A stretch of 64,000 bases of DNA, from assembly GCF_000202835.1 (NCBI RefSeq), contig NC_015186.1, positions 3,319,501 through 3,383,500 of the forward strand. Direction: 5' to 3'. The position numbers and the translations under genes are program-made. The DNA comes from Acidiphilium multivorum AIU301. GTDB lineage: Bacteria > Pseudomonadota > Alphaproteobacteria > Acetobacterales > Acetobacteraceae. A model generated the notes under the pieces. It did no database searches, was not told where the DNA came from, and was given only the letters and a program-made list of their open reading frames with translations. Of this stretch, positions 9,424-25,142 are shown one piece after another. Positions within the stretch are counted from its first letter, which is position 1, and every line of letters starts with the position of its first letter.

Positions 9424-12400
9424 GCCGCATCCTCCGGCGCGATCACGGCGAGGCGCTGCCCCGCCCGCACCACCTGTCCCGGCGCGGTCTCGATCGCGGC
9501 GAGAACCCCCGCCGCCGGCGCCGTCACCCGGACCTCCATCTTCATCGATTCGACGATCATCACCGTCTCCCCGGCGGCGACGCGCTCGCCCGTCCCGCGC
9601 AGCACCTGCCACACGCTGCCCGGCACCGGGGCGGGCAGGGCGCGCATCCCCGCCGCCAGTGCCGTCGCCGCCGGCGGCGGCGTCAGGTCCTCGGCCGGGG
9701 CGGCGTCGAGCCCCATCGCCCGCCAGGCCTCGCGCTCGGCGGCGAAGGCCGCTCCCTGCCGCGCCCGGAAGGCGGCGATGCTCTCCGCCTCCGCCGCCAT
9801 CAGCGCCTGCTGCGCCGCGAGCGAGAATGTCGTCTCCTCGATCCGCAGCGGATAGCGCCCGTGCGGAAACGCCGCCCGCGCCTCGGCCAGGTCCCGCGCG
9901 TCCACGGGGTAGAACCGCAGCACGTCGAAATGCCGCAGCAGCCAGGGCGTGTCGCCGAACGGCGCCCGCCCGCCGGGATGGCTGTTCCACATCTGCACGG
10001 TGCGGCCGAACAGCTGGTAGCCGCCCGGCCCCTCCATGCCATAGACGCAGAGATACGCCCCGCCGATCCCCACCGCGTTCTCCGGCGTCCAGGTCCGCGC
10101 CGGGTTGTATTTCGTCGTCACCAGCCGGTGCCGCGGGTCGATCGGGGTGGCCACCGGCGCGCCGAGATACACATCGCCCAGCCCCATCACGAGATAATCG
10201 GCGTCGAACACGATCCGCCGCACCGCGTCCTCGGACTCGAGCCCGTTGATCCGCCGGATGAACTCCACATTGTCCGGGCACCAGGGCGCGTCCGGCCGCA
10301 CCGTCTCCTGATATTTCCGCATCGCCAGCATCACCTGCCCGTCCTTCCAGGACAGCGGCAGATGCACGATGCGCGAGGGCACCGTCATCGCCGCCGGATC
10401 GGGCAAATCCGGCTCGATCGCGCGGATCGCCTCCAGCAGCACCTGCGCCCGCACCGCGTCCGGGTCGAAATGCACCTGCAACGAGCGGATTCCCGGCGTG
10501 AGATCGACGATGCCGGCCAGCCCCGCCAGCCGCAGCGCCGCCTGCAACGCGTGCGCCCGCAGCCGCAGCGCGAAATCCAGCGTCATCGCGCCGAACTCGA
10601 CCAGCAGGTTCGCATCCCCCTGCCGCCGCACCACCATCGTCTCCGAGCGGTGCAGCACCGCCGGGTCGGCGTCGGCACGGGTGAAATGCACCACATCCCC
10701 CGGCCGCACCTGCCCGAGCTTCCACAGATCGCCCGACGCCACCACGCCGGGGCAGACGAACCCGCCGAGCGAGGGCCCGTCCGGCCCGAGCAGGATCGGC
10801 ATGTCCCCGGTGAAATCCACCGCCCCCACCGCATAGGGCACGTCATGGATGTTGGAGGGATGCAGCCCCGCCTCGCCGCCATCCGCCCGCGCCCATTCCG
10901 GCTTCGGCCCGACCAGCCGCACCCCGGTCCGCGCCGAGTTGTGGTGCACCTCGTAGGAGGCCGAGAACAGGGTCTCGATATCCGCCTCGGTGAAGAAATC
11001 CGGCGCCCCGTGCGGCCCGTAGCGCAGCGCGATCTCCCAGCGCGCGGTCAGTTCCGCCGCCTCCGGCACCGGCGCTTCGCCACGCGCCAGCCCGGCGAGA
11101 TGCAGCACATCCCCCGCGTTCAGGCAGCCGGTGCCATGCCCGCCGAACCCGCCCAGCGCGAAGGTCGCGGTCGAACCGAGGAATTCCGCCGCCATGAACC
11201 CGCCGCCCACGGCGAGATAGCAGCGCTGCCCCGGCCCCTCGATCGCCCCCAGCGCCAGAACCTGCCCCGCCCGCACCGCAACCACCGCGTCATGCGGCAC
11301 CCGCGCGCCATCGAGCGTCGCCCCCATCCGCGCCCCGGCAAGCGCGATCTCGGCATCGCTGCGGAAGCGCAGCACCGGCCCGGTCAGCGTGCATTCCAGC
11401 ACCGCCGCCCCCGGCGGATTGCCAAGCAGCGCATTCGCCCGCGCGGCACTCCGCGCATCCATCGGCCCGCTCGGCGGAATCCCCACCTCCCAGGCGCCAA
11501 GCCGCCCCGGCAGGCTCTGCAACGACGATTGCGCGCCCGGCTCCAGCACCGCGATCCCTTCGCCCGGCCAGTCCAGCCGCCCCAGCGTCGCCGTCGTCAT
11601 CGTCCCGGCGCGGAAATCCGCATCGTCCAGCGCCGCCAGCAGATAGGCGCGGTTGGTCTCGATCCCGGTCACCACCGTCGCCGCCAGCGCCGCCCGCAGC
11701 GCCGCGATCGCCGCCGCCCGGTCCGCCCCGCGCCCGATCAGCTTCGCCAGCATCGGATCGTAGAACGGCGTCACCTCGCTCCCCGGCGCGATCCACCCGT
11801 CCACCCGCGCGCCGGCGCCATAGCGCAGCGCGGTGATCCGCCCGGTCGAGGGCCGGAACCCTTCCGCCGGGTCCTCCGCATAGAGCCGCGCCTGCACCGC
11901 CGCCCCGCGCGGGGTCAGCCCCGCCGGCAGCGCGAACCCGCCGGCGGCGGCACGGACCATCCACTCCACCAGATCGATGCCGAACACCTCCTCGGTCACC
12001 CCGTGCTCGACCTGCAGCCGCGTGTTCACCTCTAGAAAGTAAAATCCTTCCGTCGCCGCGTCGTAGATGAACTCCACCGTCCCGGCCGAGAGATACCGCA
12101 CCGACCGCGCGAGGCCGCACGCCGCGTCCTCCATCGCCGCCAGCACCGGCGCGGGAATCCCCGGCGGCGGCGTCTCCTCCACGACCTTCTGGTTACGACG
12201 CTGCAACGAACAATCCCGCGCCCCGAGTGCGATCACCCCGCCCGCGCCGTCGCCGAAGATCTGCACCTCGACATGCCGCGCCGCGGTGACGAACTTCTCC
12301 AGATACAGCGCCGCCTCGCCGAAATTCGCCTGCGCCAGCCGGCTGATCCCGGCGAAGCGCGCCCGCAGTTCCGCCTCATCGGCGCAAGGCGCCATGCCGA

Positions 12401-12908
12401 TCCCGCCGCCGCCCGCCGTGCTCTTCAGCATCACCGGATAGCCGATCCCGGCCGCCGCCTCGGCCGCCGCCTCCACCGAGCCGAGCAGCCCCGAGCCCGG
12501 CAGCAGCGGCACGCCCGCGTCCCGCGCCAGCGCCCGCGCCGTGTGCTTCAGCCCGAACGCCCGCATCTGCTCCGGGCGCGGCCCGATGAACACGATCCCC
12601 GCATCCGCCAGCGCCTCGGCGAAATCCGCCCGCTCGGCGAGGAACCCGTAGCCCGGATGCACCGCCTCCGCCCCGCTCGCCCGGCACGCGGCCACGATCG
12701 CCCCGACATCGAGATAACTCTCCGAAGCCGCGTTCCCCGCCAGCGCCACCGCATGATCCGCCGCCAGCACCGGCGCGGTGAACCGGTCAGCCGGCGAATG
12801 CACCGCGACGGACTCGATCCCCATCCGCTTCAGCGTCCGGCCGATCCGTGCCAGGATCGCCCCCCGGTTGGCGATGAGAACTCTGGAAAACCCGGCCTCC
12901 CGCCTCAT
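9420..12908 (-). CDS. Biotin-dependent urea/guanidine carboxylase
   Basis: This 1162-residue multidomain enzyme carboxylates guanidine (or urea) with ATP and bicarbonate. Domains in order: biotin carboxylase with ATP-grasp (about 1-450, starting RVLIANRGAIL), then carboxyltransferase halves of KipA/AHS2 type (IPPSGPMDARSAARANALLG) and KipI/AHS1 type. A biotinyl domain ends the protein, with MIVESMKMEV and biotinylated Lys1123. Homologues are labelled urea carboxylase, but those behind guanidine-I riboswitches and beside DUF1989 pairs act on guanidine (established work on guanidine carboxylase). Start ATG 12908 overlaps the preceding stop as ATGA. Confidence 0.92.
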   Translation of the reverse strand: MRREAGFSRVLIANRGAILARIGRTLKRMGIESVAVHSPADRFTAPVLAADHAVALAGNAASESYLDVGAIVAACRASGAEAVHPGYGFLAERADFAEALADAGIVFIGPRPEQMRAFGLKHTARALARDAGVPLLPGSGLLGSVEAAAEAAAGIGYPVMLKSTAGGGGIGMAPCADEAELRARFAGISRLAQANFGEAALYLEKFVTAARHVEVQIFGDGAGGVIALGARDCSLQRRNQKVVEETPPPGIPAPVLAAMEDAACGLARSVRYLSAGTVEFIYDAATEGFYFLEVNTRLQVEHGVTEEVFGIDLVEWMVRAAAGGFALPAGLTPRGAAVQARLYAEDPAEGFRPSTGRITALRYGAGARVDGWIAPGSEVTPFYDPMLAKLIGRGADRAAAIAALRAALAATVVTGIETNRAYLLAALDDADFRAGTMTTATLGRLDWPGEGIAVLEPGAQSSLQSLPGRLGAWEVGIPPSGPMDARSAARANALLGNPPGAAVLECTLTGPVLRFRSDAEIALAGARMGATLDGARVPHDAVVAVRAGQVLALGAIEGPGQRCYLAVGGGFMAAEFLGSTATFALGGFGGHGTGCLNAGDVLHLAGLARGEAPVPEAAELTARWEIALRYGPHGAPDFFTEADIETLFSASYEVHHNSARTGVRLVGPKPEWARADGGEAGLHPSNIHDVPYAVGAVDFTGDMPILLGPDGPSLGGFVCPGVVASGDLWKLGQVRPGDVVHFTRADADPAVLHRSETMVVRRQGDANLLVEFGAMTLDFALRLRAHALQAALRLAGLAGIVDLTPGIRSLQVHFDPDAVRAQVLLEAIRAIEPDLPDPAAMTVPSRIVHLPLSWKDGQVMLAMRKYQETVRPDAPWCPDNVEFIRRINGLESEDAVRRIVFDADYLVMGLGDVYLGAPVATPIDPRHRLVTTKYNPARTWTPENAVGIGGAYLCVYGMEGPGGYQLFGRTVQMWNSHPGGRAPFGDTPWLLRHFDVLRFYPVDARDLAEARAAFPHGRYPLRIEETTFSLAAQQALMAAEAESIAAFRARQGAAFAAEREAWRAMGLDAAPAEDLTPPPAATALAAGMRALPAPVPGSVWQVLRGTGERVAAGETVMIVESMKMEVRVTAPAAGVLAAIETAPGQVVRAGQRLAVIAPEDAA

Positions 12909-13540
12909 GGTTCCCACACCACGCAGCGGATCGGCGTCGGCCGGAACCCGTTGCACGGGTTGTTCACCTGCGGGCAGTTCGAAATCAGCACCAGCAGATC
13001 CATCTCCGCCCGCAGCTCGACATACCCGCCCGGCGCCGACACCCCGTCATCCACCGTCAGCTCCCCATCCGGCCGGATCGGCACGTTCATGAAAAAGTTC
13101 ACATTCGAAACGAGATCGCGCTTGTCCATCCCGTATTTCGCGAGCGCCGTCAGGAAATTCTCCCGGCACGCGTGCATGAACCGCGTGGCGTACCCGAACC
13201 GCACGGTGTTGCTCTCGCACGAGCACGCCCCCGCGCTGGTGTCGTGAAACCCGCAGGTATCGGCGACGATCGTCGCCATCGCCCGCCCCTCGTTCGAGCG
13301 CAGCACCGACCCGGCCGACAGGTCATACCGCCCGCCGGCCCGCGCCTGTGCGGCCAGCGTGTCCTGCGCCGAATAGCGCTCGCCCGGATCGGCGGCGTTA
13401 TAGAACAGCGCATCCACCGCCTGCTGGCCTTCCAGGTCGATGATCCGCAGCACCTGCCCCGCCTTCAGCGTGGCCGAGAACGGCGCGCGCGCCGGCACCA
13501 CGACATCGAGGATCGCCGCGTCGAAATGGTGTTCCATCAT
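12905..13540 (-). CDS. DUF1989 protein UAAP2, carboxyguanidine deiminase subunit
   Basis: This 211-residue protein was formerly called urea amidolyase-associated protein 2. Published biochemistry showed that the two DUF1989 proteins (CgiA/CgiB) form carboxyguanidine deiminase, turning carboxyguanidine into allophanate plus ammonia. Family features seen are EGQQAVDALFY, NEGRAMATI, FHDTSAGACSCESN and the Cys/His-rich metal-binding positions. The start is one of two adjacent ATGs at 13540/13537, preceded by GTGAGGG. Two upstream in-frame residues overlap the previous gene and were not used. I did not assign A or B. Confidence 0.88.
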   Translation of the reverse strand: MMEHHFDAAILDVVVPARAPFSATLKAGQVLRIIDLEGQQAVDALFYNAADPGERYSAQDTLAAQARAGGRYDLSAGSVLRSNEGRAMATIVADTCGFHDTSAGACSCESNTVRFGYATRFMHACRENFLTALAKYGMDKRDLVSNVNFFMNVPIRPDGELTVDDGVSAPGGYVELRAEMDLLVLISNCPQVNNPCNGFRPTPIRCVVWEP

Positions 13541-13544
13541 GCCC

Positions 13545-14330
13545 TCACGCGAAATAGCGGTCATTGTTCCCGAAGCCGCGCGCGGCCTCCTCCGTCGCGC
13601 ACCGGCACGGATCGTCCGCCCCCGCCGCCGCCGCGCGATACCGCACGATCCCGATTTCCCCGCTCGCCGCCTGCGATGTCGCCAACGGATGCGGCGTGTT
13701 CGACAGCGCGACGAGCAGGTTCATCTCCGCCCGCAGCGTCACGAACGCCCCCGGCGGCGGCGCGCCCGCCAGCGCCGGCCGCCCCGCGTCGTCCACCCGC
13801 ATCTTCGCGAACAGCGTCAGGCACGGCCCGACATCCCGCCGCCCGAGCCCGAACTTCGCCGCGGCGCTGCGCAGGTTGTCGCGCCCGTTGCGCGCCCCGC
13901 CCGCCGTCTCCGGCGTCGACGGCCCGAGGATCGGATCATGCCCCGCGCCGCTATCCGAAATCACCGAGGCCATCACCCGCCCCATGTCCGAAAACAGCAC
14001 CCGCCCGCCGCCGATCAGCGTCGTCCATTGCAGCTTCGCCGTATCCCCGGCATTGAACCGTTCCGAAACATCGTCGGCATTCCACAGGAAAACCGAAGCC
14101 CCCGGGGTGCCGCGCGGGTTCTCCACATGCAGCGCCTCGCCCCGCCGCAGCCGGAGTGCCACATACCAACCCGGCGGAATCACCTCCCGCGAAATCACGT
14201 CGCCAGCGCCGATCGCCGGCGGCGCGCCGAGGTCCGGCATCGCCGCCGCCCTCGCCCGCGCCCCCGCCTGCAACGCCTCGTAGCGCGCGCGATACTGCTC
14301 CGGCGTCATCGTATCGAGATTGTCCATCAT
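13545..14330 (-). CDS. DUF1989 protein UAAP1, carboxyguanidine deiminase subunit
   Basis: This 261-residue partner of the preceding DUF1989 protein shows the paralogous features RGEALHVENPRG, ASVFLWNADD, RVLFSDMGRVMASVI, FVTLRAEMNLLVALSN and a Cys pair near the C-terminus. As a heteromer the two deiminate carboxyguanidine to allophanate. The same GTGAGGG-ATG-ATG start context is used as in its partner, indicating an old duplication with its ribosome site. It sits 4 bp after the ABC ATPase stop. Confidence 0.88.
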   Translation of the reverse strand: MMDNLDTMTPEQYRARYEALQAGARARAAAMPDLGAPPAIGAGDVISREVIPPGWYVALRLRRGEALHVENPRGTPGASVFLWNADDVSERFNAGDTAKLQWTTLIGGGRVLFSDMGRVMASVISDSGAGHDPILGPSTPETAGGARNGRDNLRSAAAKFGLGRRDVGPCLTLFAKMRVDDAGRPALAGAPPPGAFVTLRAEMNLLVALSNTPHPLATSQAASGEIGIVRYRAAAAGADDPCRCATEEAARGFGNNDRYFA

Positions 14331-14334
14331 TCCC

Positions 14335-15138
14335 TCACGCGATGTTAGCGAGGCCGTCCTCGCGGGCGATCGTCCCGGCCGCGGGGTCGTCCCCCGGCCC
14401 GTTGCGCGGCGCCCGGCGCCGCACGGGAATGTCATGGGTGATCCGCGCCCCCCGCGCCGGATCGTCGGGCTCCGGCCGCTCGAACACCAGCACCCGCGTG
14501 CCCAGCCGGAACGCCTCGCTGATGTCGTGCGTCACCATCACCACGGTCATCCGCGTCTCCTCCCAGAGCCGCCGCATCAGCCCGTGAATATCCGCCCGCG
14601 TGCCCGGATCGAGCGCGCTGAACGGCTCATCCAGCAGCAGCACGCGCGGCTTCAGGATCAGCGCCTGCGCCAGCGCCAGCCGCTGCTGCATCCCGCCCGA
14701 CAGTTGCGCGGGATAGAGCGACGCCGCATGCCCGAGCCCCACCTCCTCCAGCAGCGTCCGCGCCCGCGCCTCCGCCCGCCGCCGCGCCGCGCCGAACAGC
14801 CGCCCGAGCAGCGGTGCCGCCGCGATCTCCAGCGGCAGCACCACGTTGCCGAGCACGCTCAGATGCGGAAACACCGAATAGCGCTGGAACACCACGCCGC
14901 GGTCCGCCGTCGGCTCGCCCGGCAGCGCCGCCCCCGCCAGCCGGATCGTGCCGTGGCTCGGCGTCTCCTCGCTCATCAGCATGCGCAGGAACGTCGTCTT
15001 GCCGCACCCCGTCGGTCCCACGACCGTCACGAAACTCCCCGCCTCGATCCCGAGGCTGATCCGCTCCAGCACGATCCGCGCGCCATACACCTGCCAGACA
15101 TCGCGCACCTCGATCAGCCGCGCCGCCGCCCCGCTCAC
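14335..15138 (-). CDS. ABC transporter ATP-binding protein (NitT/TauT type), guanidine/urea uptake
   Basis: This 267-residue ATPase has Walker A GPTGCGKTT, Q-loop FQRYSVFP, signature LSGGMQQRLALAQAL and Walker B VLLLDEPFSALD. The GTG start at 15138 overlaps the permease stop (GTGA). Family members import nitrate, taurine or aliphatic sulfonates; this branch accompanies urea-carboxylase regions. Operon context makes guanidine the likely substrate (inference). Confidence 0.9.
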   Translation of the reverse strand: MSGAAARLIEVRDVWQVYGARIVLERISLGIEAGSFVTVVGPTGCGKTTFLRMLMSEETPSHGTIRLAGAALPGEPTADRGVVFQRYSVFPHLSVLGNVVLPLEIAAAPLLGRLFGAARRRAEARARTLLEEVGLGHAASLYPAQLSGGMQQRLALAQALILKPRVLLLDEPFSALDPGTRADIHGLMRRLWEETRMTVVMVTHDISEAFRLGTRVLVFERPEPDDPARGARITHDIPVRRRAPRNGPGDDPAAGTIAREDGLANIA

Positions 15139-15953
15139 GACCGCGCCGCCCCGGCGAACCACGGGAACGCCTTCGCCTGCACGAGCCGCAACGCCGCGTC
15201 GAACACCACCGCCAGCAGCGTGATCCACAGGACATAGGGAATGATGATGTCCATCGCGAAATAGCGCCGCACCAGGAAGATCCGGTAGCCGAGCCCGTCC
15301 TGTGCCGCGATCGCCTCGGCCGAGATCAAATACAGCCAGGCCGGCCCGAGCGAGAGCCGCAGGCTGTCGATCAGCCGCGGCGCCATCTGCGGCACCACCA
15401 CCCGGAGCGCGATCTGCCAGGACGACGCCCCCAGCGTCTGCGCCTTGATCATCTGCGCGCGCGGCAGCTCCTCCACCCGCAGCACGAGGTCGCGCACGAT
15501 ATAGGGCGCCGTGCCGATCACGATCAGCGCCACCTTCGCCGTCTCGCCGATCCCGGCGATGATGAACAGGATCGGCAGCACCGCGAGCGGCGGCACCATC
15601 GAGAAGGCGGTGATGAACGGCAGCAGCAGCTTGCGAAGATACGGCACCATGCCAACGAGAATGCCGAGCCCGAAGCTGATCGCGGTGGCGATCGCCAACC
15701 CCGACAGGATTCGCCGCAGGCTCGCCAGCGTATCCGCGAGCAGCGGATACTGCCCGGTCGCCATGTCGCGCGTGAGCGCCATCTCCCGCATCCCCGCCGC
15801 CATCTGCGCCAGCGTCGGCAACACCTTGTCAGATGGATTGACCTCGTGCCGCATCGTCGAGACGACGATGTAGCCAAGCCCGACCAGCAGGAACGGCAGC
15901 AGCATCAGCACCCGTCCGCTGCCGGGCCGGGGATGGCGGTTGATGACGCGCAT
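15135..15953 (-). CDS. ABC transporter permease (NitT/TauT type), guanidine/urea uptake
   Basis: This 272-residue inner-membrane permease has about six helices. It carries the cytoplasmic EAA-type loop (EELPRAQMIKAQTLGASSWQ) that contacts the ATPase. The first helix is after RPGSGRVLMLL. It lies between the substrate-binding protein (8-bp gap) and ATPase (GTGA overlap). Substrate inferred from the guanidine operon. Confidence 0.9.
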   Translation of the reverse strand: MRVINRHPRPGSGRVLMLLPFLLVGLGYIVVSTMRHEVNPSDKVLPTLAQMAAGMREMALTRDMATGQYPLLADTLASLRRILSGLAIATAISFGLGILVGMVPYLRKLLLPFITAFSMVPPLAVLPILFIIAGIGETAKVALIVIGTAPYIVRDLVLRVEELPRAQMIKAQTLGASSWQIALRVVVPQMAPRLIDSLRLSLGPAWLYLISAEAIAAQDGLGYRIFLVRRYFAMDIIIPYVLWITLLAVVFDAALRLVQAKAFPWFAGAARS

Positions 15954-15961
15954 CGCCCGGC

Positions 15962-17041
15962 TCAGAGCTTTTTCGCCGCCGCCATCCGCATGAAGTCCGA
16001 CGTGTAGCGGAACTTGACGTTCCGCCTGTCGCCGAGGATCTTCCCGTCCGGAAACGCGATCCCCACCACGTTGGGCGAGGTCGCGCCCTGGCCCATCAGC
16101 CCGTGGCGGAACAGGAAGGTGCGGACATATTCCATCGTCTTCACCAGCTGCGCCGAGCGGGTGAACGCGGCCGCCCCCGCCGGGTCGGCGAACAGATGCG
16201 TCGTCTTCAGCTGCGCATCGAAACCCTTGAGGTCGGTGCCCGAAAGTTTCGCCATCGCCGTCCGCGCCGCCTTGCCCTCCGCGCTGTCCGACAGCATGAT
16301 CCCCAGCGTCTCGTACCACGCCCCGGTCAGCGCCTTCGCGAATTCCGGATGCGCCTTCAGCACGTCGGTCCGCACGATGCACAGGTCGAGAATCTCGCCT
16401 GGAATCTGCGCCGAGGTGAACACCTCGTGCGCGTCGGCATTCTTCATGATCTCCTGCACGATCGGGTTCCACGTCACCACCGCGGTCACCGCCTTCGTCA
16501 TCCACGCTGCCGCCATGTCAGCGTCGGAGGTGTTGACGATGCGCACGTCCCGCTCGCTCATGTGGTGCTTTTCCAGCCCCCGGTCGAACAGGTATTGCGA
16601 CACCGAATACTGCACGAGGTTCACCTTCTGCCCCTTCAGGTCGGTGAACTTCGTCTTGTCCTTGAGAATCACGGCATCGTTGCCGTTAGAGTAATCCCCG
16701 GTGATGATCGAGGTCGAATCCACCCCGCCCACCGCCGGCACCGCCAGCGTGTCCATGTTGGTGATCGTCAGCGCGTCGAACGCGCCGGCGGTGTACTGGT
16801 TGATCGAGGTCGGATAATCCGCGACCTCGATCACCTCGATCTCGATCCCGTACTTGTCCGCCCATTTCTTCACGATCCCCTTGTCCGCCGCCCAGGGCCA
16901 GGGCATCCAGCCGACATAGATCGTCCAGGCCAGCTTGAATTTCTTCGCTCCGCCGGCCCGCGCCACAGGCAGGCCCGGCAGCACCGCCGCCGCCGTCGCC
17001 GCCCCGGCTCCCGTCTTGATGAATTGCTTGCGTGTCAGCAT
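15962..17041 (-). CDS. Periplasmic substrate-binding protein of the guanidine operon ABC transporter
   Basis: First gene after the riboswitch. The 359-residue protein has an N-terminal export signal (MLTRKQFIKTGAGAAT...PVARA); TRKQFIK resembles a Tat motif but has RK rather than RR, so Sec is equally likely. The mature part is an NMT1/SsuA-type binding protein (WTIYVGWMPWPWA, EVADYPTSINQYTAGAFDALTITN). TIGRFAM recognises such proteins as urea-carboxylase-region binding proteins. ATG 17041 has a strong GAGGAGAAG ribosome site that could be controlled by the upstream riboswitch. Confidence 0.9.
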   Translation of the reverse strand: MLTRKQFIKTGAGAATAAAVLPGLPVARAGGAKKFKLAWTIYVGWMPWPWAADKGIVKKWADKYGIEIEVIEVADYPTSINQYTAGAFDALTITNMDTLAVPAVGGVDSTSIITGDYSNGNDAVILKDKTKFTDLKGQKVNLVQYSVSQYLFDRGLEKHHMSERDVRIVNTSDADMAAAWMTKAVTAVVTWNPIVQEIMKNADAHEVFTSAQIPGEILDLCIVRTDVLKAHPEFAKALTGAWYETLGIMLSDSAEGKAARTAMAKLSGTDLKGFDAQLKTTHLFADPAGAAAFTRSAQLVKTMEYVRTFLFRHGLMGQGATSPNVVGIAFPDGKILGDRRNVKFRYTSDFMRMAAAKKL

Positions 17042-17120
17042 CGGTCTTCTCCTCACCGTCGATCGCATCGATCGGCGCGAGGGGGCGAACGGAGAAACCG
17101 ATGCACACCCACGCACCAAA

Positions 17121-17222
17121 GTCTCTCCCGGGCTTTTGTCCCGCCGTGGACCGCGCGGATGTCTCCCGCGCGGCTGAAGCTCTCGGACCAGCGCCGGATT
17201 TTTGATCCGGCCGGAACCCTAG
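17121..17222 (-). ncRNA. Guanidine-I riboswitch (ykkC-yxkD leader)
   Basis: On the minus strand the hallmark blocks appear in order: CTAGGGTTCCGG, CTGGTCCGAGAG and ACGGCGGGACAAAAGCCCGGGAGA. Two variable stems separate them (a GGCCGGAT.../ATCCGGCG-type stem and a GCCGCGCGG.../CCGCGCGGT stem). Class I aptamers bind guanidine and turn genes on. The aptamer lies 80 nt before the start of the binding-protein gene. Downstream, TTTCTCC (17091-17097) is complementary both to the aptamer's 3' GGAGA and to the Shine-Dalgarno GGAGAAG (17046-17052), a possible expression platform. Confidence 0.93.
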
Positions 17223-17236
17223 CTCGGCTTTGTTCC

Positions 17237-17253
17237 TGCAACCGGCGTGCCAG
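17237..17253 (-). promoter_or_regulatory. Near-perfect sigma54 promoter of the guanidine operon
   Basis: The minus strand reads TGGCACG-CCGG-TTGCA, an exact match to the consensus TGGCACG-N4-TTGCW with GG and GC 10 bp apart. The predicted transcription start is about 17226, only a few nucleotides before the first conserved riboswitch base at 17222. So the transcript would begin with the aptamer. Control by NtrC and nitrogen limitation is the expected meaning; a clear NtrC site was not recognised upstream. Confidence 0.82.
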
Positions 17254-17481
17254 AGGTGAACGCACCGGCAGAAGCAAGCAAATAAAATAGGCGGCCGGCG
17301 TCGAATCTCCATAAATTGCAACGAGAATAGTCATCAAAAGATGTCAAGATATGCAAATGCGGAGTAAATAATCGGATGACGCCGGCGTGATCCGCCCCTG
17401 TGGCACGGGAGCGGAGCAGAAGAAGCAAAAACGGAGCAAAATTCTTGCCCACCCCGGCGCGAGTATGTTCTTGTTCCGTTC
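17254..17481. other. Divergent upstream region between guanidine operon and 17482 gene
   Basis: An AT-rich core (about 17270-17370) in G+C-rich surroundings, suitable for enhancer binding or DNA bending upstream of the sigma54 promoter. No palindromic NtrC site with TGCACC/GGTGCA halves was found with confidence. No coding region supported. Confidence 0.4.
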
Positions 17482-18057
17482 ATGGATGTCACCCGCCGCT
17501 TCCGCGCCCTGATCGACACGCTGTGCGACGCCGTCGCCCGGCGCGGGGCTGCCGGCGCCTTCGGCCCCGGGAGCGGCGCCCTCACCATCCTGCTCTGGAC
17601 CCGCCTGCGCCGCTACGCCACATTTTTGCTCCGCCTCTGCGCCGACGATGTTTCTGCGCCGCGCCCGCGTCCCTCTCGCCGCCGGGCGCGCCCGCCGGCC
17701 AATCCCGCAAGGCTCGCCTTGCCGCGCCGCGCCGCCTGGCTTCTCGCTCCGGTCCCCGAGGCCATCGCCGCCGCCGGCCAGCTCCGCGCCCTGCTCGCCG
17801 ATCCCGAATTGCAGCGCCGCATCGGTGAGGAACCGCGCCTCGGCCGCATCCTCCGCCCGCTCTGCCGCTGCCTCGGCGTGAAACTCCCCGCGCCGCTCCG
17901 CCTCCCGCCGCGCCCGCCGCGCCAATCCGGCCGCGACGCCGCAGCCCCCCGCCCGAGCCGCCGCGTCCCGGCGCTGGCACCGCTGCCGCGCCGGTTCCGC
18001 CCGCCCGCCGCCTGCGCGCCGCCGCCCCGCCGCAACCGCGCCCCGCCCGGTCGCTGA
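17482..18057 (+). CDS. Conserved hypothetical protein, Acetobacteraceae type
   Basis: This 191-residue, Arg/Pro/Ala-rich protein has a helical N-terminus (VTRRFRALIDTLCDAVARR). A recognisable core follows: LPRRAAWLLAPVPEAIAA, LLADPELQRRIGEEPRLGRILRPLCRCLGV. I recall this core from uncharacterised acetic-acid-bacterial proteins, often in several paralogues per genome. The C-terminal 50 residues are disordered and basic. Function unknown. Overlapping minus-strand frames are open only because of high G+C. Confidence 0.65.
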   Translation: MDVTRRFRALIDTLCDAVARRGAAGAFGPGSGALTILLWTRLRRYATFLLRLCADDVSAPRPRPSRRRARPPANPARLALPRRAAWLLAPVPEAIAAAGQLRALLADPELQRRIGEEPRLGRILRPLCRCLGVKLPAPLRLPPRPPRQSGRDAAAPRPSRRVPALAPLPRRFRPPAACAPPPRRNRAPPGR

Positions 18058-18216
18058 TCCGCGCCAGGCGGCCCGCCCATGTCCGGCCCAACGGCCGGAT
18101 ACTTGTCATGCGGCGAAAATGGACGAACAATATAACATCACGACAACGAAACGATGTGACTGTTCGCACAGGGCAGTTTCCGGTCCGCCCGGATCGGACG
18201 CACCGCCCTGAAATCC

Positions 18217-19530
18217 ATGGAGAAGCATGAAGTGAGCGTTTCCGATATCTTCGCGCAGATCGTCGCCCTGGTCGGCGGCGCCGCCGTTCTCGCCCGCCGG
18301 TCGGACGCGCCCCGCCAGCCCGCCTGGGGCACCGCGCCGGCCATCCCGCCGGCGAAATCGCAGGGCAGCATCCCGACCCTGAAGATGCCGACGGCGCGCG
18401 GCTGGCCCGCGGGGCGCACGCCGGTGGCCGCTCCCGGCCTGAAGGTCAACGCCTTCGCCACCGGCCTGCAGCACCCGCGCTGGATCTGCGCGCTCCCCGG
18501 CGGCGACGTGCTGATCGCCGAGGCGTGCGAGGTGCCGCGCCCGCCCTCCTCGATCTTCGACTACGCGATGATCAGCACGATGAAGCGCGCCGCCGCGATG
18601 GGGCCGAGCGCCAACCGCATCACCCGCCTGCGCGACGCGGATGGCGACGGCGTCGCCGAAATCCGCAACGCCTTCATGGAAAATCTCAACCAGCCCTTCG
18701 GCATGGCCCTGGTCGGCGACACCTTCTATGTCGGCAATACCGATGGCGTGATGGCTTTCCCCTACACGAACGGCGCGGAGCGCATCGCCGCGCCGGGGCG
18801 GCGGCTCACCCGCTTCAACCCCGGCGGCCACTGGACCCGCAGCCTGCTGCCGAGCCCGGACGGCGCGAAACTCTATGTCGGCGTCGGCTCGCTCACCAAC
18901 ATCGCCGAGGCCGGCATGGCGGTGGAGGAAGGCCGCGCCGCCATCCACGAGATCGACCTTGCCAGCGGCGCCAGCCGCATCTTCGCCGCCGGCCTGCGCA
19001 ACCCGGTCGGCCTCGCCTGGGAGCCGCGCACCGGCGCGCTCTGGACGGTGGTCAACGAGCGCGACGGCATCGGCGACGAAACCCCGCCCGACTATCTCAC
19101 CACCGTGCGCGAGGGCGGTTTCTACGGCTGGCCCTATTGCTACTGGGGCCAGACGGTGGACGACCGGGTGAAGCAGGACCCCGCCCTCGTCGCCCGCGCG
19201 CTCACGCCGGATTACGCGCTCGGCGGCCACACCGCCTCGCTCGGCCTCTGCTGGCTGCCCGCCGGCGCGCTGCCCGGCTTTCCCGAAGGCATGGCGATCG
19301 GCCAGCACGGCTCGTGGAACCGCAGCACGCTGAGCGGCTACAAGGTCGTCTTCATCCCCTTCGCCGATGGCCGCCCCGCCGGCCCGCCGCGCGACATCCT
19401 GAGCGGCTTCCTCTCGGCGGACGAACGCGAGTCCTATGGAAGGCCGGTCGGCGTCGCGCTCGGCCCGGATGGCGGCCTGCTCGTGGCCGACGATGTCGGC
19501 GACGTGATCTGGCGGGTGACCGGCGCCTGA
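18217..19530 (+). CDS. Sorbosone dehydrogenase family (PQQ-type soluble sugar dehydrogenase)
   Basis: This 437-residue beta-propeller oxidoreductase belongs to the L-sorbosone dehydrogenase/GdhB family, which uses PQQ to oxidise sugars in the periplasm. Seen are GLQHPRWICALPGGDVLIAE, GLRNPVGLAWEPRTGALW, NERDGIGDETPPDYLTTV and GGFYGWPYCYWG, all family hallmarks, and a C-terminal GRPVGVALGPDGGLLVADD blade. The N-terminal hydrophobic segment at about residues 8-24 may be an uncleaved anchor or signal. It stands alone and converges with the RND gene 18 bp away. The true sugar substrate cannot be read from sequence. Confidence 0.85.
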   Translation: MEKHEVSVSDIFAQIVALVGGAAVLARRSDAPRQPAWGTAPAIPPAKSQGSIPTLKMPTARGWPAGRTPVAAPGLKVNAFATGLQHPRWICALPGGDVLIAEACEVPRPPSSIFDYAMISTMKRAAAMGPSANRITRLRDADGDGVAEIRNAFMENLNQPFGMALVGDTFYVGNTDGVMAFPYTNGAERIAAPGRRLTRFNPGGHWTRSLLPSPDGAKLYVGVGSLTNIAEAGMAVEEGRAAIHEIDLASGASRIFAAGLRNPVGLAWEPRTGALWTVVNERDGIGDETPPDYLTTVREGGFYGWPYCYWGQTVDDRVKQDPALVARALTPDYALGGHTASLGLCWLPAGALPGFPEGMAIGQHGSWNRSTLSGYKVVFIPFADGRPAGPPRDILSGFLSADERESYGRPVGVALGPDGGLLVADDVGDVIWRVTGA

Positions 19531-19548: not shown

Positions 19549-22500
19549 TCAGCCGAGGCCGTCATCCTCCGGCGGGCGGAACCGGGCGAGGCGCGGCGCC
19601 AGCACCGGCAGCACGAACAGCGAGAGCAGCGTCGCCGTCAGCAGCCCGCCGAGAATGACGATCGCCATCGGCCCCTCGATCGCATCGCCGGGGGAGCCGG
19701 CGGCGATCGCCAGCGGCAGCAGCCCGAGGGCCGTCACGCTCGCCGTGATCACAATGGCCGGCAGCCGGTCGGCCGCCGCCGCGCGCGCCGTCGCCGCCGA
19801 CCAGTCCATCCCGTGCTCCAGCACCAGCCGGCGCATGTGGATCAGCAGCAGCAGCCCGTTGCGCAGCGTCAGGCCGAACAGCGTCGCCAGCCCCACCATC
19901 GCGCCGAGGCCGAGATGACCGGCGAGGAAGATCCACACCGCCGCGACGCCGCCGGCAAAGGCGACCGGCAGGATGCCGACGATCAGCGCCACCGCCCGCG
20001 CGTCGCGCAGCGCCAGCGCGATGAGCGCGAGGATGACGCCCAGCGCCATCCCCGCATGCACGACGAGCGAGCGCCGCGCCGCCCCGCCCGCGATCGCGGT
20101 GCCGCCATACTGCACATAAATTCCGGCCCCGAGCCCAAGCCCGGCGATGCGCCGGCGCAGCGCCGCGACCACCGCCGCGGACCGCCCGTGCGCGGTCTGC
20201 ACGGTGACGACCTGCACCCGCCGGCCGTCATCGTGCAGGATCTGCGCCGGGCCGCGGGTCTGGCCGATTTGCGCGATCCGCCGCAACGGCACCACCATCC
20301 CGCCGGACGCCGCCACCGGCAGGTCGCCCACCGAGGCCGGCTCGCGGCGCAGCGCCTTCGGCAGCGTCACCACCACCGGCTCGACCAGCGTGCCGCGATA
20401 CACATGGCCGACCACCGTGCCGGCATAGGCGATCCGCAGCGCCGCGAGCGCCGCGCGCGCCGTCACGCCATAGCGCAGCATCGCCGCGCGATCGAGCGTC
20501 ACCGACAGGGTGGGCTCCGCCTGGGTCGCGGCGAGCGATGCCGCGCGCACCCCCGGCAGGTGCCGCGCCGCGGCGGCGATGCGCTGCGCCGCGACGTCGA
20601 TCCGGGCGAGGTTCGGCCCGTAGACGGATACCGTCACCGGCGCCGTCACCCCCGCGAGGCTCTCGTCGATCCGCTCGCTCAGGAAGGTGTGGGTCCACCA
20701 GGCCAGCCCCTGGATGCCGTCGACCGCGTCGAGAATCCGGCGCGTCGAGCGCGCGGCGTGGCGGTTGCCGGTTCGGCTGAGGGTGATGTCGATCTCGGCC
20801 TTGTTCACCCCGGCATGGCCGTTGCTCATCGAGGCCCGGCCGATATGCATCACCGCGCTGGCGACCTCGGGCAGGCGGTCGATCGTGCCGACGACGCGGC
20901 GGCCGATCGCCAGCATCGCGTCGATCGACATGCCGGGGGCGGCCAGGAAGTGGACGATCACGTCGTTCTCGCGGAAGCGCGGCAGGAAGCGCGCCTGGAG
21001 CAGCGGCGCGCTGACCGCCGCCACCGCCGCCACGGCCACCGCCAGCACGGCGGCGAGCCGCCCCCAGCGTTCGAGGCCGGCCAGCGCCCGCCGGTAGGCC
21101 GGTTGCAGCAGCACGATCGGCGGCGTGTGCGCCCGCCCGTCATCGCCGCGCCCGAGCAGCAGCGCCGCGAGCGCCGGCGTCACCACCAGCGCCACCATGA
21201 GCGAGGCCGCGATCGCGGCGATATAGGCGATGCCGAGCGGCGCGAACAGCCGTCCCGCCACGCCGCCGAGCGCGATCACCGGGGTGAAGGCGACGACGAC
21301 GGCGGCGCTCGCGAACACGATCGCGCTGCGCACCTCCAGCGAGGCGCGGAGGATCACCAGCAGCCTCGGCGCCGGGGCGGCGGCGGCGCGGTTCTCCCGC
21401 AGGCGGCGGGTGATGTTCTCGACATCGACCACCGCGTCGTCGACCAGTTCGCCGAGCGCGATCGCGAGGCCGGCCAGCGCCATGGTGTTGAGGGTGATGC
21501 CGAGCGCCGTGATCACCCCGACCGCCGCCAGCAGCGACACCGGAATGGCGACGAAGGAAATCAGCGCCGCCCGCCAGTCGCGCAGCGCGACGAGCAGCAC
21601 GAGCAGGATCAGCGCCGCGCCGATCAGCAGCACATGGCCGAGATCGAGCAGCGCGACGCGGATGAACGCCGCCGGCGTGAAGGCGCGCGGATCGACGCCG
21701 ACCCCCTCCGCCCGCAGCCCCGGCGTCAGCCGCGCGATCACGTGCGCCGCCTGGTTGGCGACCTTCAGCGTGTTGGCGCCATAGAGCGAGGAGACCAGCA
21801 GCAGCAGCCCCTGCCGGTCATGGATCAGCGCCGCGCCGAACCGCGGCGGCGTGGCGATCCGCACATGGGCGACATCGCCGAGGCTCACCGGCACGCCATC
21901 GCGCGCGCCGAGCCAGCTTGCCGCCAGCGCCGCGGCGTTGCGCGCCTGCCCCTCCGGCGCGAGGACGAGGCGCTGGGCGCCGCTGTCGATGAACCCGGCG
22001 CCGAGCACGGCGCTCGCCGCATGCGCCGCCCGCGCCACCGCCGCCAGGGTGAAGCCGGTGGCCAGCAGGCGGCGCGGCCGCACGGCGACGTCGAATTGCG
22101 GGGGCCGCGCGCCGAACATCACGATATTCGCCACCCCCGGCACCGCCAGCAGCGCCGGCCGCACCTCGGTCTCGGCGATCGCCGTCAGCCGCTCCAGCGA
22201 CATGTGCCCGGTGGGGTAGAGCCCGATTTCCAGCGCCGTGCCGGTGGAGGACTGCATCGGCGCGAGCCGGGGCACGATCCCCGCCGGCAGCGCGCCGCCG
22301 AGTTCGGCCAGCCGCCCGGCGACGCGCTGGCGGTCGCCGAAGGGATCGGTGCCGCCGTGGAACACCAGATGCACCACCGACAGCCCGGCCTCCGAGGTCG
22401 AGCGCATCCGCGCGAGGCCGGGCAGGCCGGTGAGGCGGCGCTCCAGCCGGTCGGTGACCAGCTGTTCGGTCTGCAACGCGCTGAAGCCGGGTGTGGCGGT

Positions 22501-22653
22501 CTCGATCACCACCGTCGGCGCGGTGAATTCGGGAAACACGTCGTAGCGGGCGCCGGGCAGCCGCGCGATCTGGATCGCCGCGAGCCCGCCCACCAGCAGC
22601 ACGACGACGAGCCGGTAGCGCAGCGCGGCGCGGACGATGGCGGACAACAGCAT
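19549..22653 (-). CDS. HME-type RND efflux pump inner-membrane subunit (CzcA/CusA family)
   Basis: This 1034-residue proton-driven exporter has 12 membrane helices in the RND arrangement and two large periplasmic loops. Helix 4 carries LVDDAVVDVEN, the heavy-metal-efflux signature with proton-relay acidic residues. The N-terminus ARYDVFPEFTAPTVVIETATPG is typical of HME pumps. Gene order outer-membrane factor, adaptor, pump on the minus strand forms one operon with ATGA coupling upstream and a 9-bp gap here. Which metal is moved is unclear; CusA-type methionine clusters were not evident, so divalent cations are favoured weakly. Confidence 0.88.
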   Translation of the reverse strand: MLLSAIVRAALRYRLVVVLLVGGLAAIQIARLPGARYDVFPEFTAPTVVIETATPGFSALQTEQLVTDRLERRLTGLPGLARMRSTSEAGLSVVHLVFHGGTDPFGDRQRVAGRLAELGGALPAGIVPRLAPMQSSTGTALEIGLYPTGHMSLERLTAIAETEVRPALLAVPGVANIVMFGARPPQFDVAVRPRRLLATGFTLAAVARAAHAASAVLGAGFIDSGAQRLVLAPEGQARNAAALAASWLGARDGVPVSLGDVAHVRIATPPRFGAALIHDRQGLLLLVSSLYGANTLKVANQAAHVIARLTPGLRAEGVGVDPRAFTPAAFIRVALLDLGHVLLIGAALILLVLLVALRDWRAALISFVAIPVSLLAAVGVITALGITLNTMALAGLAIALGELVDDAVVDVENITRRLRENRAAAAPAPRLLVILRASLEVRSAIVFASAAVVVAFTPVIALGGVAGRLFAPLGIAYIAAIAASLMVALVVTPALAALLLGRGDDGRAHTPPIVLLQPAYRRALAGLERWGRLAAVLAVAVAAVAAVSAPLLQARFLPRFRENDVIVHFLAAPGMSIDAMLAIGRRVVGTIDRLPEVASAVMHIGRASMSNGHAGVNKAEIDITLSRTGNRHAARSTRRILDAVDGIQGLAWWTHTFLSERIDESLAGVTAPVTVSVYGPNLARIDVAAQRIAAAARHLPGVRAASLAATQAEPTLSVTLDRAAMLRYGVTARAALAALRIAYAGTVVGHVYRGTLVEPVVVTLPKALRREPASVGDLPVAASGGMVVPLRRIAQIGQTRGPAQILHDDGRRVQVVTVQTAHGRSAAVVAALRRRIAGLGLGAGIYVQYGGTAIAGGAARRSLVVHAGMALGVILALIALALRDARAVALIVGILPVAFAGGVAAVWIFLAGHLGLGAMVGLATLFGLTLRNGLLLLIHMRRLVLEHGMDWSAATARAAAADRLPAIVITASVTALGLLPLAIAAGSPGDAIEGPMAIVILGGLLTATLLSLFVLPVLAPRLARFRPPEDDGLG

Positions 22654-22662
22654 GGGCCGGTC

Positions 22663-23583
22663 TCAGGTCCCGCCGGCGGCGCCGGCGGTCCGCGCCAGCA
22701 TCGAGTTCAGCAGCCCGGCCCCGCGCACGACGATGGCGGGATCGCGCGGCAGCGCCGTGGCGGGCACGAAGCGCGTGCCCGGCGCATCGCCCCGCCGCAG
22801 CGAGCCGGTGCCGCCGAGCGGAACGGCGGTGAAGACGCGCGGCGCCGTCCGCACGAAGGCGAAGGCGCGGTCATGGTGCCAGACCAGCGCCGAGACCGGC
22901 ACGTCATATCCGGCGATCGTCCGCCCCGCCGGCAGCGACACCGCGAGCGGCGTGCCGACGGGCAGGGCCGGTCCGGTGAACAGGAACGCCTGGCCGAGCA
23001 GCCCCGGCGGCAGCTGCCCCGCCGGGCCGATGGCATGGAGCGCCGCCGTCCCGCCATTCGCCAGCCGCGCCGTCGCGGCGGCGGGCAGGTGGTTCAGCGC
23101 CGCGCCGCCCTGCACCACCGAGACGAGCGACCCGCCGGCTTCGATGGCGCGGAACGGCGCGCCGTTCCCGGCGATCGCGGCGCCGAGCGCGGCGCCGAAG
23201 CGGGCCGCCGCCGCCGACCGCAGCGCCGCGAGCCGCGCCCGCGCGCTCGTCGCCCCCGCCTCGGCCTGCTGGACGCTCGCCTCCGAGACATTGCCCGCGG
23301 CGTGATAGAGGCGGCGCGTGCGGGCCAGGGTGGCGGCGGCGAGGGTATCCGCCGCCCGCGCCGCGACGATCCGGCTCCGCAGGGTGAAGACCGGCGTCGG
23401 GTCGATCACCCGCCCATAGGCCGCGATCATCGGCGTCTCGGTGTGCAGGGCGGGCACCGCGGTGACGATCAGCCCGCTGCGCAGCGTCGCCGCGTCGACG
23501 GTCACGCCGCCCGCCGCCCGCGCCGCGCCGGCGCCCAGCACCAGGAACGCCGCCATTGCCATTCCCGCGACACGCCGCCTCAT
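22663..23583 (-). CDS. Small RND periplasmic adaptor protein, atypical
   Basis: This 306-residue membrane-fusion-like protein has a signal peptide (GMAMAAFLVLGAGAARAAGG). It shows the beginning of an adaptor beta-barrel (VPALHTETPMIAAYGRVIDPTPVFTLRSRIVAA), an Ala/Arg-rich helical segment (about 85-150) and C-terminal barrel and membrane-proximal parts. It lacks the usual paired lipoyl motif with GxVxxV...GxxVxxGxxL, and is about 100 residues shorter than CzcB/CusB. The ATGA overlap with the outer-membrane gene and its position before the pump make the adaptor role likely. Confidence 0.75.
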   Translation of the reverse strand: MRRRVAGMAMAAFLVLGAGAARAAGGVTVDAATLRSGLIVTAVPALHTETPMIAAYGRVIDPTPVFTLRSRIVAARAADTLAAATLARTRRLYHAAGNVSEASVQQAEAGATSARARLAALRSAAAARFGAALGAAIAGNGAPFRAIEAGGSLVSVVQGGAALNHLPAAATARLANGGTAALHAIGPAGQLPPGLLGQAFLFTGPALPVGTPLAVSLPAGRTIAGYDVPVSALVWHHDRAFAFVRTAPRVFTAVPLGGTGSLRRGDAPGTRFVPATALPRDPAIVVRGAGLLNSMLARTAGAAGGT

Positions 23584-24983
23584 GCGGACACCTCCCTGAA
23601 AACCCGATGATGCAGCGCGTCGGCCAGGGCGGCGAGCGCGCGCAGGCGCTGGCCCTCGGCGGTCAGCAATTGTTCGCGGGCGAGGATCGCCTGCCCCTCG
23701 GCCTCGACCAGGCGCAGCCGGCCGGTGGCGCCGAGCCGGTAGGCCTGCGCCGCCTGCGCCGCGCGCCGCGCCGCGATGGCATCGAGCCGCCGCGCCGCCA
23801 GCAGCGTGTCCCGGCTGCCCCGCCAGGCCGCCGCCGCCGCGTCGATCTGCGCCAGCACACGCGCCTGCGCCCGCTCGAACTTCGCGGCGGCGAGGCGGCG
23901 CTGCGCCCGGGCGATGGCGATCTGCCCCTGGTGCTGGTTGAGCACCGGCAGCGGCAGCGAGAGCGAGAGGATGAACTTGCTGTCGCCCTGGTCGTAATGA
24001 TAGCCGGGGCCGATCGAGATGCCGGGGAACTGGCTGTCCACCGCCTGGCGCAGGGCATCGTCGGCGGCGCGGTAGCGGGCGAGGGCGGCGGCGACCTGCG
24101 GCCGCGCCGTGATCGCCGCGCGGACCAGGGCGGGCCAGCGGTCCGGCGCCGGGGCCGATGGATGGGCGAAGGCGGCGAAGGACAGCGACACCCCCCGCAG
24201 CGCCGCCGCCGGCATGCCGATCGCGGCGGCGAGGCGGGCGCGGTCGGCGCCGATCCGGCCCGCCGCCTCCGCCGCGGCGAAGCGCGCGCGATCGGCCGCC
24301 GCCTCGGCGCGGGCGAGAACGGTCTCGGCCAGCATGCCCGCCGTGGCGCGCTGGGCGATCAGCGCCTGCGCCTGCCCGGCCTCGCGGGCCGCGAGGCGTT
24401 GCAGCCGCGCCGCGCGCCGGTCCAGCCACAAGGTCAGCAGCGCATCGCGCACCGCCGACCGCTCCCGCCAGGCAGCGGCGGCGATGACATCGCGGGCGGC
24501 GGCCTCGCGCGCCCGCGCCGCCGCGATCCCGGCCTGCCGCGCGCCGAAATTCGCGACCAGGAACTGGATCACCGGCCCGACCTTGATCGGCGAGGGCACC
24601 GGCTGGGTGGCGTTGAAGGTCGGCGACAGCGACAGCGTCGGGTTGGGAAGCTGGCGCGCGCGCACGACCTGCCCGGCCGCCACGTCGGCTTCCGTGGTGC
24701 GGATCCTGAGGTCCGGCCGCTCGTAGACGGCGACCAGCGTCAGCGCCCGCAGGCCGAAACGCCCGTGCGGAGGCTCGCCCATCGCGTCGAGAAACCGCAC
24801 GAGGCCGGGCTGGTCGAGCCGGCGGGCGGTCAGCGCGGCGGCGGCGGCGGCGGGGTCGATCGGCGCGGGCCGGACGTGCGCGCAGCCCGCCAGCGCCAGG
24901 GCGAGCAGCGGGGCGACCCGCCGCAGCGCGGGCAAAAGTCCGCGATGCCGGGGGCCGGGCGCATGGCCGGCGGACCCGATCAA
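23580..24983 (-). CDS. Outer-membrane efflux lipoprotein (TolC/NodT/CusC family)
   Basis: The probable mature lipoprotein has lipobox LALAGC and then an alpha-helical outer-membrane factor of two repeats (AVYERPDLRIRTTEADV..., ITARPQVAAALARYRAADDALRQAV). The end is helical and Ala-rich. I chose TTG at 24983, 8 nt after a GGAGG ribosome site, giving about 467 residues and a short signal peptide. An ATG 105 bp upstream adds 35 low-complexity residues and is less likely. It forms the exit duct for the RND pump encoded downstream. Confidence 0.82.
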   Translation of the reverse strand: MIGSAGHAPGPRHRGLLPALRRVAPLLALALAGCAHVRPAPIDPAAAAAALTARRLDQPGLVRFLDAMGEPPHGRFGLRALTLVAVYERPDLRIRTTEADVAAGQVVRARQLPNPTLSLSPTFNATQPVPSPIKVGPVIQFLVANFGARQAGIAAARAREAAARDVIAAAAWRERSAVRDALLTLWLDRRAARLQRLAAREAGQAQALIAQRATAGMLAETVLARAEAAADRARFAAAEAAGRIGADRARLAAAIGMPAAALRGVSLSFAAFAHPSAPAPDRWPALVRAAITARPQVAAALARYRAADDALRQAVDSQFPGISIGPGYHYDQGDSKFILSLSLPLPVLNQHQGQIAIARAQRRLAAAKFERAQARVLAQIDAAAAAWRGSRDTLLAARRLDAIAARRAAQAAQAYRLGATGRLRLVEAEGQAILAREQLLTAEGQRLRALAALADALHHRVFREVSA

Positions 24984-25142
24984 CCGCGATACCTCCGTTC
25001 GTGCCGTGCCATGCAACGTCTCCGTGCAAACCGCCCCGCGCGGATCGCGGGAAAACGAGCCGAGGCAGTGAGCGGGCCGGCATGCCAAGTCAATGCCGGC
25101 GGGTTCACAAGGTTGCCAGCCGGTTGCCGGAGAGCGCGGCCC

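Follow-up and report, generated by a model that had tools for sequence, protein, structure and literature searches.

An operon for guanidine assimilation in Acidiphilium multivorum AIU301 appears to be under the control of an AND gate, in which a sigma54 promoter activated by NtrC supplies one input and one or more guanidine riboswitches the other, a reading to which we give a probability of roughly 0.8. The operon lies within a 64,000-nucleotide stretch of DNA (the window), the numbering of which is used throughout. Along the minus strand a terminator-like hairpin, a sigma54 element and a guanidine-I aptamer precede seven genes that run down to 7657. A sigma54 promoter abutting a guanidine-I riboswitch in front of a nine-kilobase guanidine operon had been claimed in a first-pass annotation of this DNA, and the element, the Rfam match and a carboxylase operon of about 9.5 kb are indeed all present. 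The features in order of transcription are as follows.

17432 to 17456, minus strand: terminator-like hairpin upstream of the promoter (consensus scan; two overlapping sites against 1.3 expected, a weak signal)
17237 to 17252, minus strand: sigma54 −24/−12 element TGGCACG-CCGG-TTGCA (exact consensus match; 10/12 or better in 114 of 141 non-redundant relatives)
17224 to 17226, minus strand: predicted transcription start, at the base of aptamer helix P1 (12 to 14 nt past the −12 C)
17123 to 17233, minus strand: guanidine-I aptamer, RF00442 (cmscan 83.8 bits, cut-off 63)
17091 to 17128, minus strand: post-aptamer hairpin of the aptamer tail GGAGAGAC (17128 to 17121) with GUUUCUCC, a proposed anti-anti-Shine-Dalgarno (minimum-energy fold)
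17038 to 17104, minus strand: hairpin burying the Shine-Dalgarno (about 17056 to 17048) and the start codon (17041 to 17039), a proposed OFF state (minimum-free-energy folds)
15965 to 17041, minus strand: periplasmic substrate-binding protein, TIGR03427, the presumed guanidine importer (NCBIfam 506.5 bits, cut-off 333.9)
15135 to 15962, minus strand: ABC transporter permease (Pfam BPD_transp_1 above cut-off; NCBIfam matches under their cut-offs)
14335 to 15228, minus strand: ABC transporter ATPase, start codon uncertain (Pfam ABC_tran above cut-off; NCBIfam matches)
14349 to 14398, minus strand: probable internal guanidine-II riboswitch, RF01068 (36.8 bits, cut-off 32)
13545 to 14330, minus strand: DUF1989 protein UAAP1, carboxyguanidine deiminase subunit (TIGR03425, 209.2 bits, cut-off 205.95)
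12905 to 13564, minus strand: DUF1989 protein UAAP2, second deiminase subunit (TIGR03424, 316.4 bits, cut-off 284.7)
9420 to 12956, minus strand: guanidine carboxylase, annotated family urea carboxylase (TIGR02712, 1633 bits)
7657 to 9420, minus strand: allophanate hydrolase (TIGR02713, 735 bits, cut-off 511)

The carboxylase has Asp at both the K. lactis 1330 and 1584 equivalents, as read by hand from the alignment, and in the available text of PMC11410670 Asp at these positions is the signature which separates guanidine from urea carboxylases, and so the possibility of a urea rather than a guanidine operon is ruled out. The hairpin at 17456 to 17432 may insulate the promoter from read-through.

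The sigma54 consensus used for scoring is TGGCACG-N4-TTGCW. At the promoter TGGCACGCCGGTTGCA (minus strand, 17252 to 17237) agrees with it at 12 of 12 specified positions, with GG at −24, GC at −12 and the correct spacing between them, and so the exact element claimed earlier is confirmed. It is the single exact match to TGGCACG-N4-TTGCA in the whole window. Looser sites, with up to two mismatches, are ordinary there (4 seen against 5.9 expected from shuffles), and so it is the position of the element, not the match alone, that carries weight. Twelve nucleotides beyond the −12 C is 17226, which agrees with an earlier estimate of a start about 4 nt before the first conserved base of the aptamer, the C of CTAGGG lying at 17222; the next purines are 17225 (G) and 17224 (A). 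Of the P1 pairs of the window aptamer in the Rfam alignment, the outer two are non-canonical and four are left, and so the predicted transcript would start at the P1 base. The distance of the element from CTAGGG is −30 here, the shortest spacing seen and one shared with other relatives.

Conservation of this arrangement was surveyed with RF00442 in 299 family, 13 genus, 395 order, 385 class and 398 phylum genomes, the larger groups being searched under stricter filters with genomes drawn evenly from each, and matches were obtained in 15, 6, 30, 31 and 43 genomes of these overlapping sets, respectively. The analysis covered 94 loci from a part of these matches (among the matches listed), and a first parse left 7 of the 94 unparsed and gave some spurious second matches (e.g. 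L037, L047, L048). The counts reported here use a stricter pattern, with near-duplicates and aptamers having less than 120 nt upstream left out, which gives 84 non-redundant aptamers; these loci joined to 80 named loci, taken among the matches listed from 582 relatives of the operon's first gene, give a set of 141 from the Pseudomonadota. An element was scored when at least 10/12 positions agreed, with GG and GC exact, within 120 nt upstream of the aptamer. It is present upstream of 64 of the 84, where shuffled DNA of the same upstream regions gives a mean of 0.75 and a maximum of 4, and same-strand tiles elsewhere in the loci have it in 22 of 3653 cases and the opposite strand in none. Within the larger set 114 of 141 aptamers are preceded by the element. 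The 80 named loci give guanidine-I by the text parser in 68, 59 of them with the element, and cmscan finds guanidine-I in 10 of the 12 that the parser had scored as lacking it (L149, L167, L112, L161, L170, L171, L173, L174, L177, L179); nine of these ten have the element 25 to 84 nt before the aptamer, L179 being without it. Two loci with the same first gene (L166, L138) have a sigma54-like site of 11/12 or 10/12 and no guanidine-I at the Rfam cut-off.

Other riboswitches serve as controls for specificity. None of 30 guanidine-II loci has the element within 150 nt upstream; 13 of these stand before exporters of the small multidrug-resistance type and 17 before carboxylase-like or DUF1989-like genes (labels from reading the translated first gene by hand), and since the 17 lie inside operons, where a promoter is not expected, the fair control is 0 of 13 exporter loci. 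TPP riboswitches of relatives have the element upstream in 1 of 30. This single TPP case (L227) is from the window's own genome, a 10/12 sigma54-like site 36 nt upstream of the TPP match. A chance origin of the element would draw on near-consensus sigma54 sites being common in GC-rich DNA, and sites with two or fewer mismatches are as frequent in the window as in its shuffles; however the shuffle, tile, opposite-strand, guanidine-II exporter and TPP controls refute a chance match at the level of the family, and we give it virtually no weight.

The spacing of the element bears on its nature. TGGCAY-N5-TTGC occurs in 77 of the aptamer upstreams in the set of 141, and the N2 to N4 and N6 to N8 spacings do not occur at all. 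Distances from CTAGGG fall into two groups, a larger one at −30 to −48 (most often −38) and another at −66 to −105, and no element is closer than −30, a distance at which the predicted start would begin to encroach on P1. The regular placement of the larger group could be taken to mean that TGGCAC-N5-TTGC is an upstream RNA part of the riboswitch and not a promoter, but with all sites taken together the distance varies between −30 and −105 and the internal spacing is constant, and four tested genomes in which rpoN was not detected keep the aptamer and not the element. On variable distance and fixed internal spacing the RNA-element reading is rejected, and it seems to us scarcely credible. The distant-promoter group (L066 to L082, L093, L241, L242) has 50 to 70 nt of extra upstream leader, often with a small GC hairpin and a recurring ACAAT...AATGG just before the aptamer, as judged by eye.

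Close relatives keep the promoter with the riboswitch. Loss of the element beside a retained riboswitch was looked for and was not seen in the genus, all nine guanidine-I places (in 6 of 13 genomes searched) keeping an 11-12/12 element. Across the set of 141, 27 aptamers are without it, and 13 of these come from L003, L008, L023, L024, L027, L028, L030 and L031, more distant genera in which the riboswitch is kept and the element lost, those tested being without rpoN or NtrC. Five loci (L047, L050, L083, L142, L164) have a near-miss TGGCAYG-N4-TTGA, with GA for GC at −12, and were counted as absent. Six loci from element-less genera (L003, L008, L027, L028, L030 and L031, at about 1511 and 1744) have two guanidine-I aptamers back to back, 120 to 130 nt apart, one of which faces a gene judged by eye to be carboxylase-like and the other a gene judged permease-like; in several of the loci a TTGACC-like box precedes one of the two.

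Since some relatives are without the element, the riboswitch can work without it, and it could be argued that a housekeeping sigma70 promoter drives the window's operon too, with guanidine alone deciding and the sigma54 element minor or vestigial. In favour of such an arrangement L003, L027, L028, L030 and L031 show, by eye, the TTGACC-like box in place of the element, and the available text of a Vreelandella boliviensis study credits induction to two riboswitches (PMC12508155). However a scan of 16500 to 18500 found no sigma70-like site on this strand, using an E. coli-type consensus which may miss the sites of this group, and a conservation so strong and so exact in spacing is hard to square with a vestige, and so we regard control by sigma70 as highly unlikely.

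The sigma54 reading is joined to NtrC by the distribution of both proteins. The window genome has an rpoN (a PF04552 match in a 497-aa open frame) and an NtrC (TIGR01818, 674 bits, cut-off 558.6). Among 24 genomes, picked after the sites were seen and falling into 14 genera with relatives that are not independent, and so with a smaller effective number, the element is present in 11 of the 13 that have both rpoN and NtrC (G922 and G729 having both and no element) and in 0 of the 11 with one missing. The sigma54 DNA-binding domain was not found in four of the 24 (G430, G349, G376, G336), and NtrC over cut-off was not found in seven (G008, G037, G326, G340, G356, G416, G589, the last with a stop in its rpoN frame), and the element is absent from all of these. 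NtrC over the NCBIfam cut-off is present in the four genomes where no sigma54 domain was found (those of L031, L023, L024 and L025, in the order given), and may there work with another sigma factor.

NtrC-type boxes give a further indication. TGCAC-N7-GTGCA at 9/10 or better occurs upstream of 13 of 112 non-redundant sites, the other 99 upstream regions having none, and shuffles give a mean of 1.8 and a maximum of 5; GCAC-N7-GTGC is the sole spacing from 3 to 12 clearly over shuffles (8 against 1.2). Within 440 nt, 12 of 17 NtrC-type boxes fall between −120 and −40, a plausible position for an enhancer. A Pantoea agglomerans plasmid has an NtrC box of 9/10, a sigma54 site of 12/12, guanidine-I and guanidine-II before uca, and a plasmid of Caballeronia sp. 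NK8 has the same series with an NtrC box of 8/10 and a sigma54 site of 11/12. Upstream of the window's operon the best NtrC-like box is 8/10 at −166, and a box of 9/10 or better was not found there nor in the family loci L001 to L036, and so for this operon we infer NtrC from its relatives. The nitrogen input by way of sigma54 and NtrC put forward in the first-pass annotation is supported as the likely second input, NtrC being its probable activator.

Whether the promoter answers to NtrC or to another enhancer-binding protein, perhaps with a different signal, needs to be weighed here. The window genome has at least 28 matches to the NtrC model, one of them over cut-off among the matches listed, and the NtrC box upstream in the window is weak, all of which would suit a different activator. 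To be set against this are the absence of the element from seven of seven tested genomes that have rpoN and no NtrC over cut-off, the enrichment upstream in relatives of boxes with the 7-nt spacing, and the behaviour of an ntrC mutant of B. cenocepacia H111. In the accessible data of PMC5491218 this mutant under nitrogen limitation shows a log2 change of −6.0 for urea carboxylase, and zero reads for the ABC binding protein and the associated protein of urea carboxylase, the H111 operon being likened to the window's through the genes in its expression table. A different activator we therefore consider unlikely.

The RNA input is provided by a guanidine-I aptamer whose conserved core is intact in the Rfam alignment, and which is predicted to bind guanidine. 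A transcriptional terminator in the leader was considered and rejected, as a consensus scan of 16500 to 17123 on this strand showed nothing terminator-like beyond the aptamer; a TTTTT run within 190 nt after the aptamer is found in some relatives only. Folding of 17106 to 17030 (−32.9 kcal/mol) predicts a pairing of GCAUCGGUUUCUCC (17104 to 17091) with GGAGAAGACCGAUGC (17052 to 17038) by which the Shine-Dalgarno and AUG are buried, a hairpin for which the support is weak since the z-scores of larger stretches are modest (−1.48 and −0.96). With no intrinsic terminator and the Shine-Dalgarno and AUG buried in the fold, the riboswitch here probably works on translation, with the mRNA level following by polarity. 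The first-pass annotation had the transcript itself needing both inputs; two inputs are supported, with that of guanidine more probably acting at translation.

How the aptamer might be coupled to translation is suggested by its tail. For the majority of transcript ends between 17093 and 17039 the tail GGAGAGAC takes the anti-Shine-Dalgarno strand in the predicted fold, with a different fold preferred over the tail hairpin at ends 17069 and 17063, and the two hairpins are exclusive. The tail hairpin is predicted whether or not the rest of the aptamer is included in the fold, and so folding gives no proof that guanidine selects between the two. When the full leader is folded unconstrained the partner of the tail is the conserved 5' CUAGGG strand, and so a guanidine-bound aptamer would free the tail, making for a translational ON switch. 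The inner stem beside the tail is conserved in 19 family loci, chosen by hand from the first 36, with G-C/C-G and C-G/U-A exchanges; of three alignments, the shortest alone shows the tail itself paired.

A second RNA element, missed in the first-pass annotation, lies inside the operon. The probable guanidine-II riboswitch at 14398 to 14349 overlaps the 3' end of the ATPase gene, precedes UAAP1 and folds into two hairpins with ACGA and ACGG loops. A Rfam scan of 12 named loci found guanidine-II in 8, and in 6 of the 12 (L117, L120, L133, L146, L149, L172) it lies 2.6 to 2.8 kb past the start of the match to the substrate-binding protein, as it does in the window, with a match further downstream in L141 and one on the opposite strand in L132. 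Among 10 further named loci it was found in 3, at the window's place in L112 and L161 and further downstream in L171, and it is probably at that place also in L100. Four stretches of genus relatives (L095 to L098) gave no match, L095, with the same operon, none even at E up to 5.

Taken as a mechanism, sigma54-RNA polymerase would wait in a closed state at the −24/−12 element seen here until nitrogen limitation brings an enhancer-binding protein, most likely phosphorylated NtrC, to open the promoter. Transcription would start at the P1 base, and so the guanidine-I aptamer would be the first RNA made. With guanidine bound, the aptamer tail would be free to pair with the anti-Shine-Dalgarno strand, as the folds suggest, and the first gene would be translated; with guanidine absent the Shine-Dalgarno and AUG would be sequestered. 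The internal guanidine-II may repeat the check for guanidine ahead of the deiminase and carboxylase genes, an arrangement that is not conserved in one close relative. Import and degradation of guanidine, at a cost in ATP, would thus occur only if guanidine is present and a better nitrogen source is not.

Parts of this scheme are already known. Carboxylase-pathway operons of Raoultella, Klebsiella, Erwinia and Vreelandella boliviensis have the same guanidine-I at the start and an internal guanidine-II, according to the available texts of PMC12186494 and PMC12508155, and share with the window the ABC importer, carboxyguanidine deiminase, guanidine carboxylase and allophanate hydrolase. In what is available of their main texts neither NtrC nor nitrogen limitation appears and induction is credited to guanidine; a sigma factor is absent from that of PMC12186494, and "sigma" in that of PMC12508155 is a reagent supplier only. 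From the side of DNA, the NtrC/sigma54 nitrogen-scavenging regulon of B. cenocepacia H111 shares the promoter type and probably also the activator, and its ntrC table in the accessible part of PMC5491218 includes genes of an operon homologous to the window's and shows their dependence on NtrC. The accessible part of a sigma54 regulon survey likewise gives a genome-wide prediction for DUF1989 genes, with 102 sigma54-dependent COG3665 genes, 59% of them named urea carboxylase (PMC12316311). Guanidine is absent from the available portions of both of these sources and "riboswitch" occurs in a reference of the survey only, the RNA layer not being considered there. Tandem riboswitch logic gates (PMC5912903) also put two inputs on one operon, but combine two RNA aptamers where the window would combine an enhancer-dependent promoter with one.

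No description of the promoter and riboswitch together was found in the open-access literature searched, which is in line with an earlier remark that no case of this exact geometry was known; the pairing itself turns out to be common in the Pseudomonadota. What is new is the combination, its breadth, its tie to assimilation operons and an apparent dependence on rpoN and NtrC. More broadly we lean towards the view that in much of the Pseudomonadota guanidine-I has co-evolved with a nitrogen-limitation promoter into a standing hybrid gate, with NtrC and sigma54 as the DNA input and guanidine as the RNA input, often doubled by guanidine-II, the start lying in some lineages as near to the aptamer as P1 allows, the gate being lost where rpoN or NtrC is lost and guanidine-II exporters standing outside it. 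If true, guanidine would be primarily a nitrogen source in these bacteria, and guanidine-I would be the first class of riboswitch for which a systematic tie with a single alternative sigma factor had been shown.

The available text of a recent review (PMC12186494) calls the role of guanidine in bacterial physiology elusive, and the promoter bears on it, guanidine-I carboxylase operons being under apparent nitrogen control and the 13 guanidine-II exporter genes not. It is predicted that on ammonium guanidine alone would not fully induce these operons, which is of relevance to induction experiments, to guanidine biosensors and to guanidine removal from fertilised soils or wastewater. The 582 relatives of the first gene also offer many homologues for comparison of what would be a natural promoter-plus-riboswitch AND gate.

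Guanidine-I/sigma54 units also occur before other genes of the family (L009, L015, L018, L020, L022, L033, L034, L005), which by eye include glutamine synthetase-like, amino-acid permease, metallo-hydrolase, phosphoesterase and desaturase genes. At L092 the gene downstream of a guanidine-I without the element looks, by eye, like an agmatinase or guanidinase. The window itself has an arginase-family gene (PF00491, 288 bits; 54487 to 55401, plus strand), possibly an agmatinase or guanidinase, and an RND-type efflux pump (PF00873) with an outer-membrane efflux protein (PF02321) lies at 19549 to 25088 on the minus strand, beyond the promoter side of the operon.
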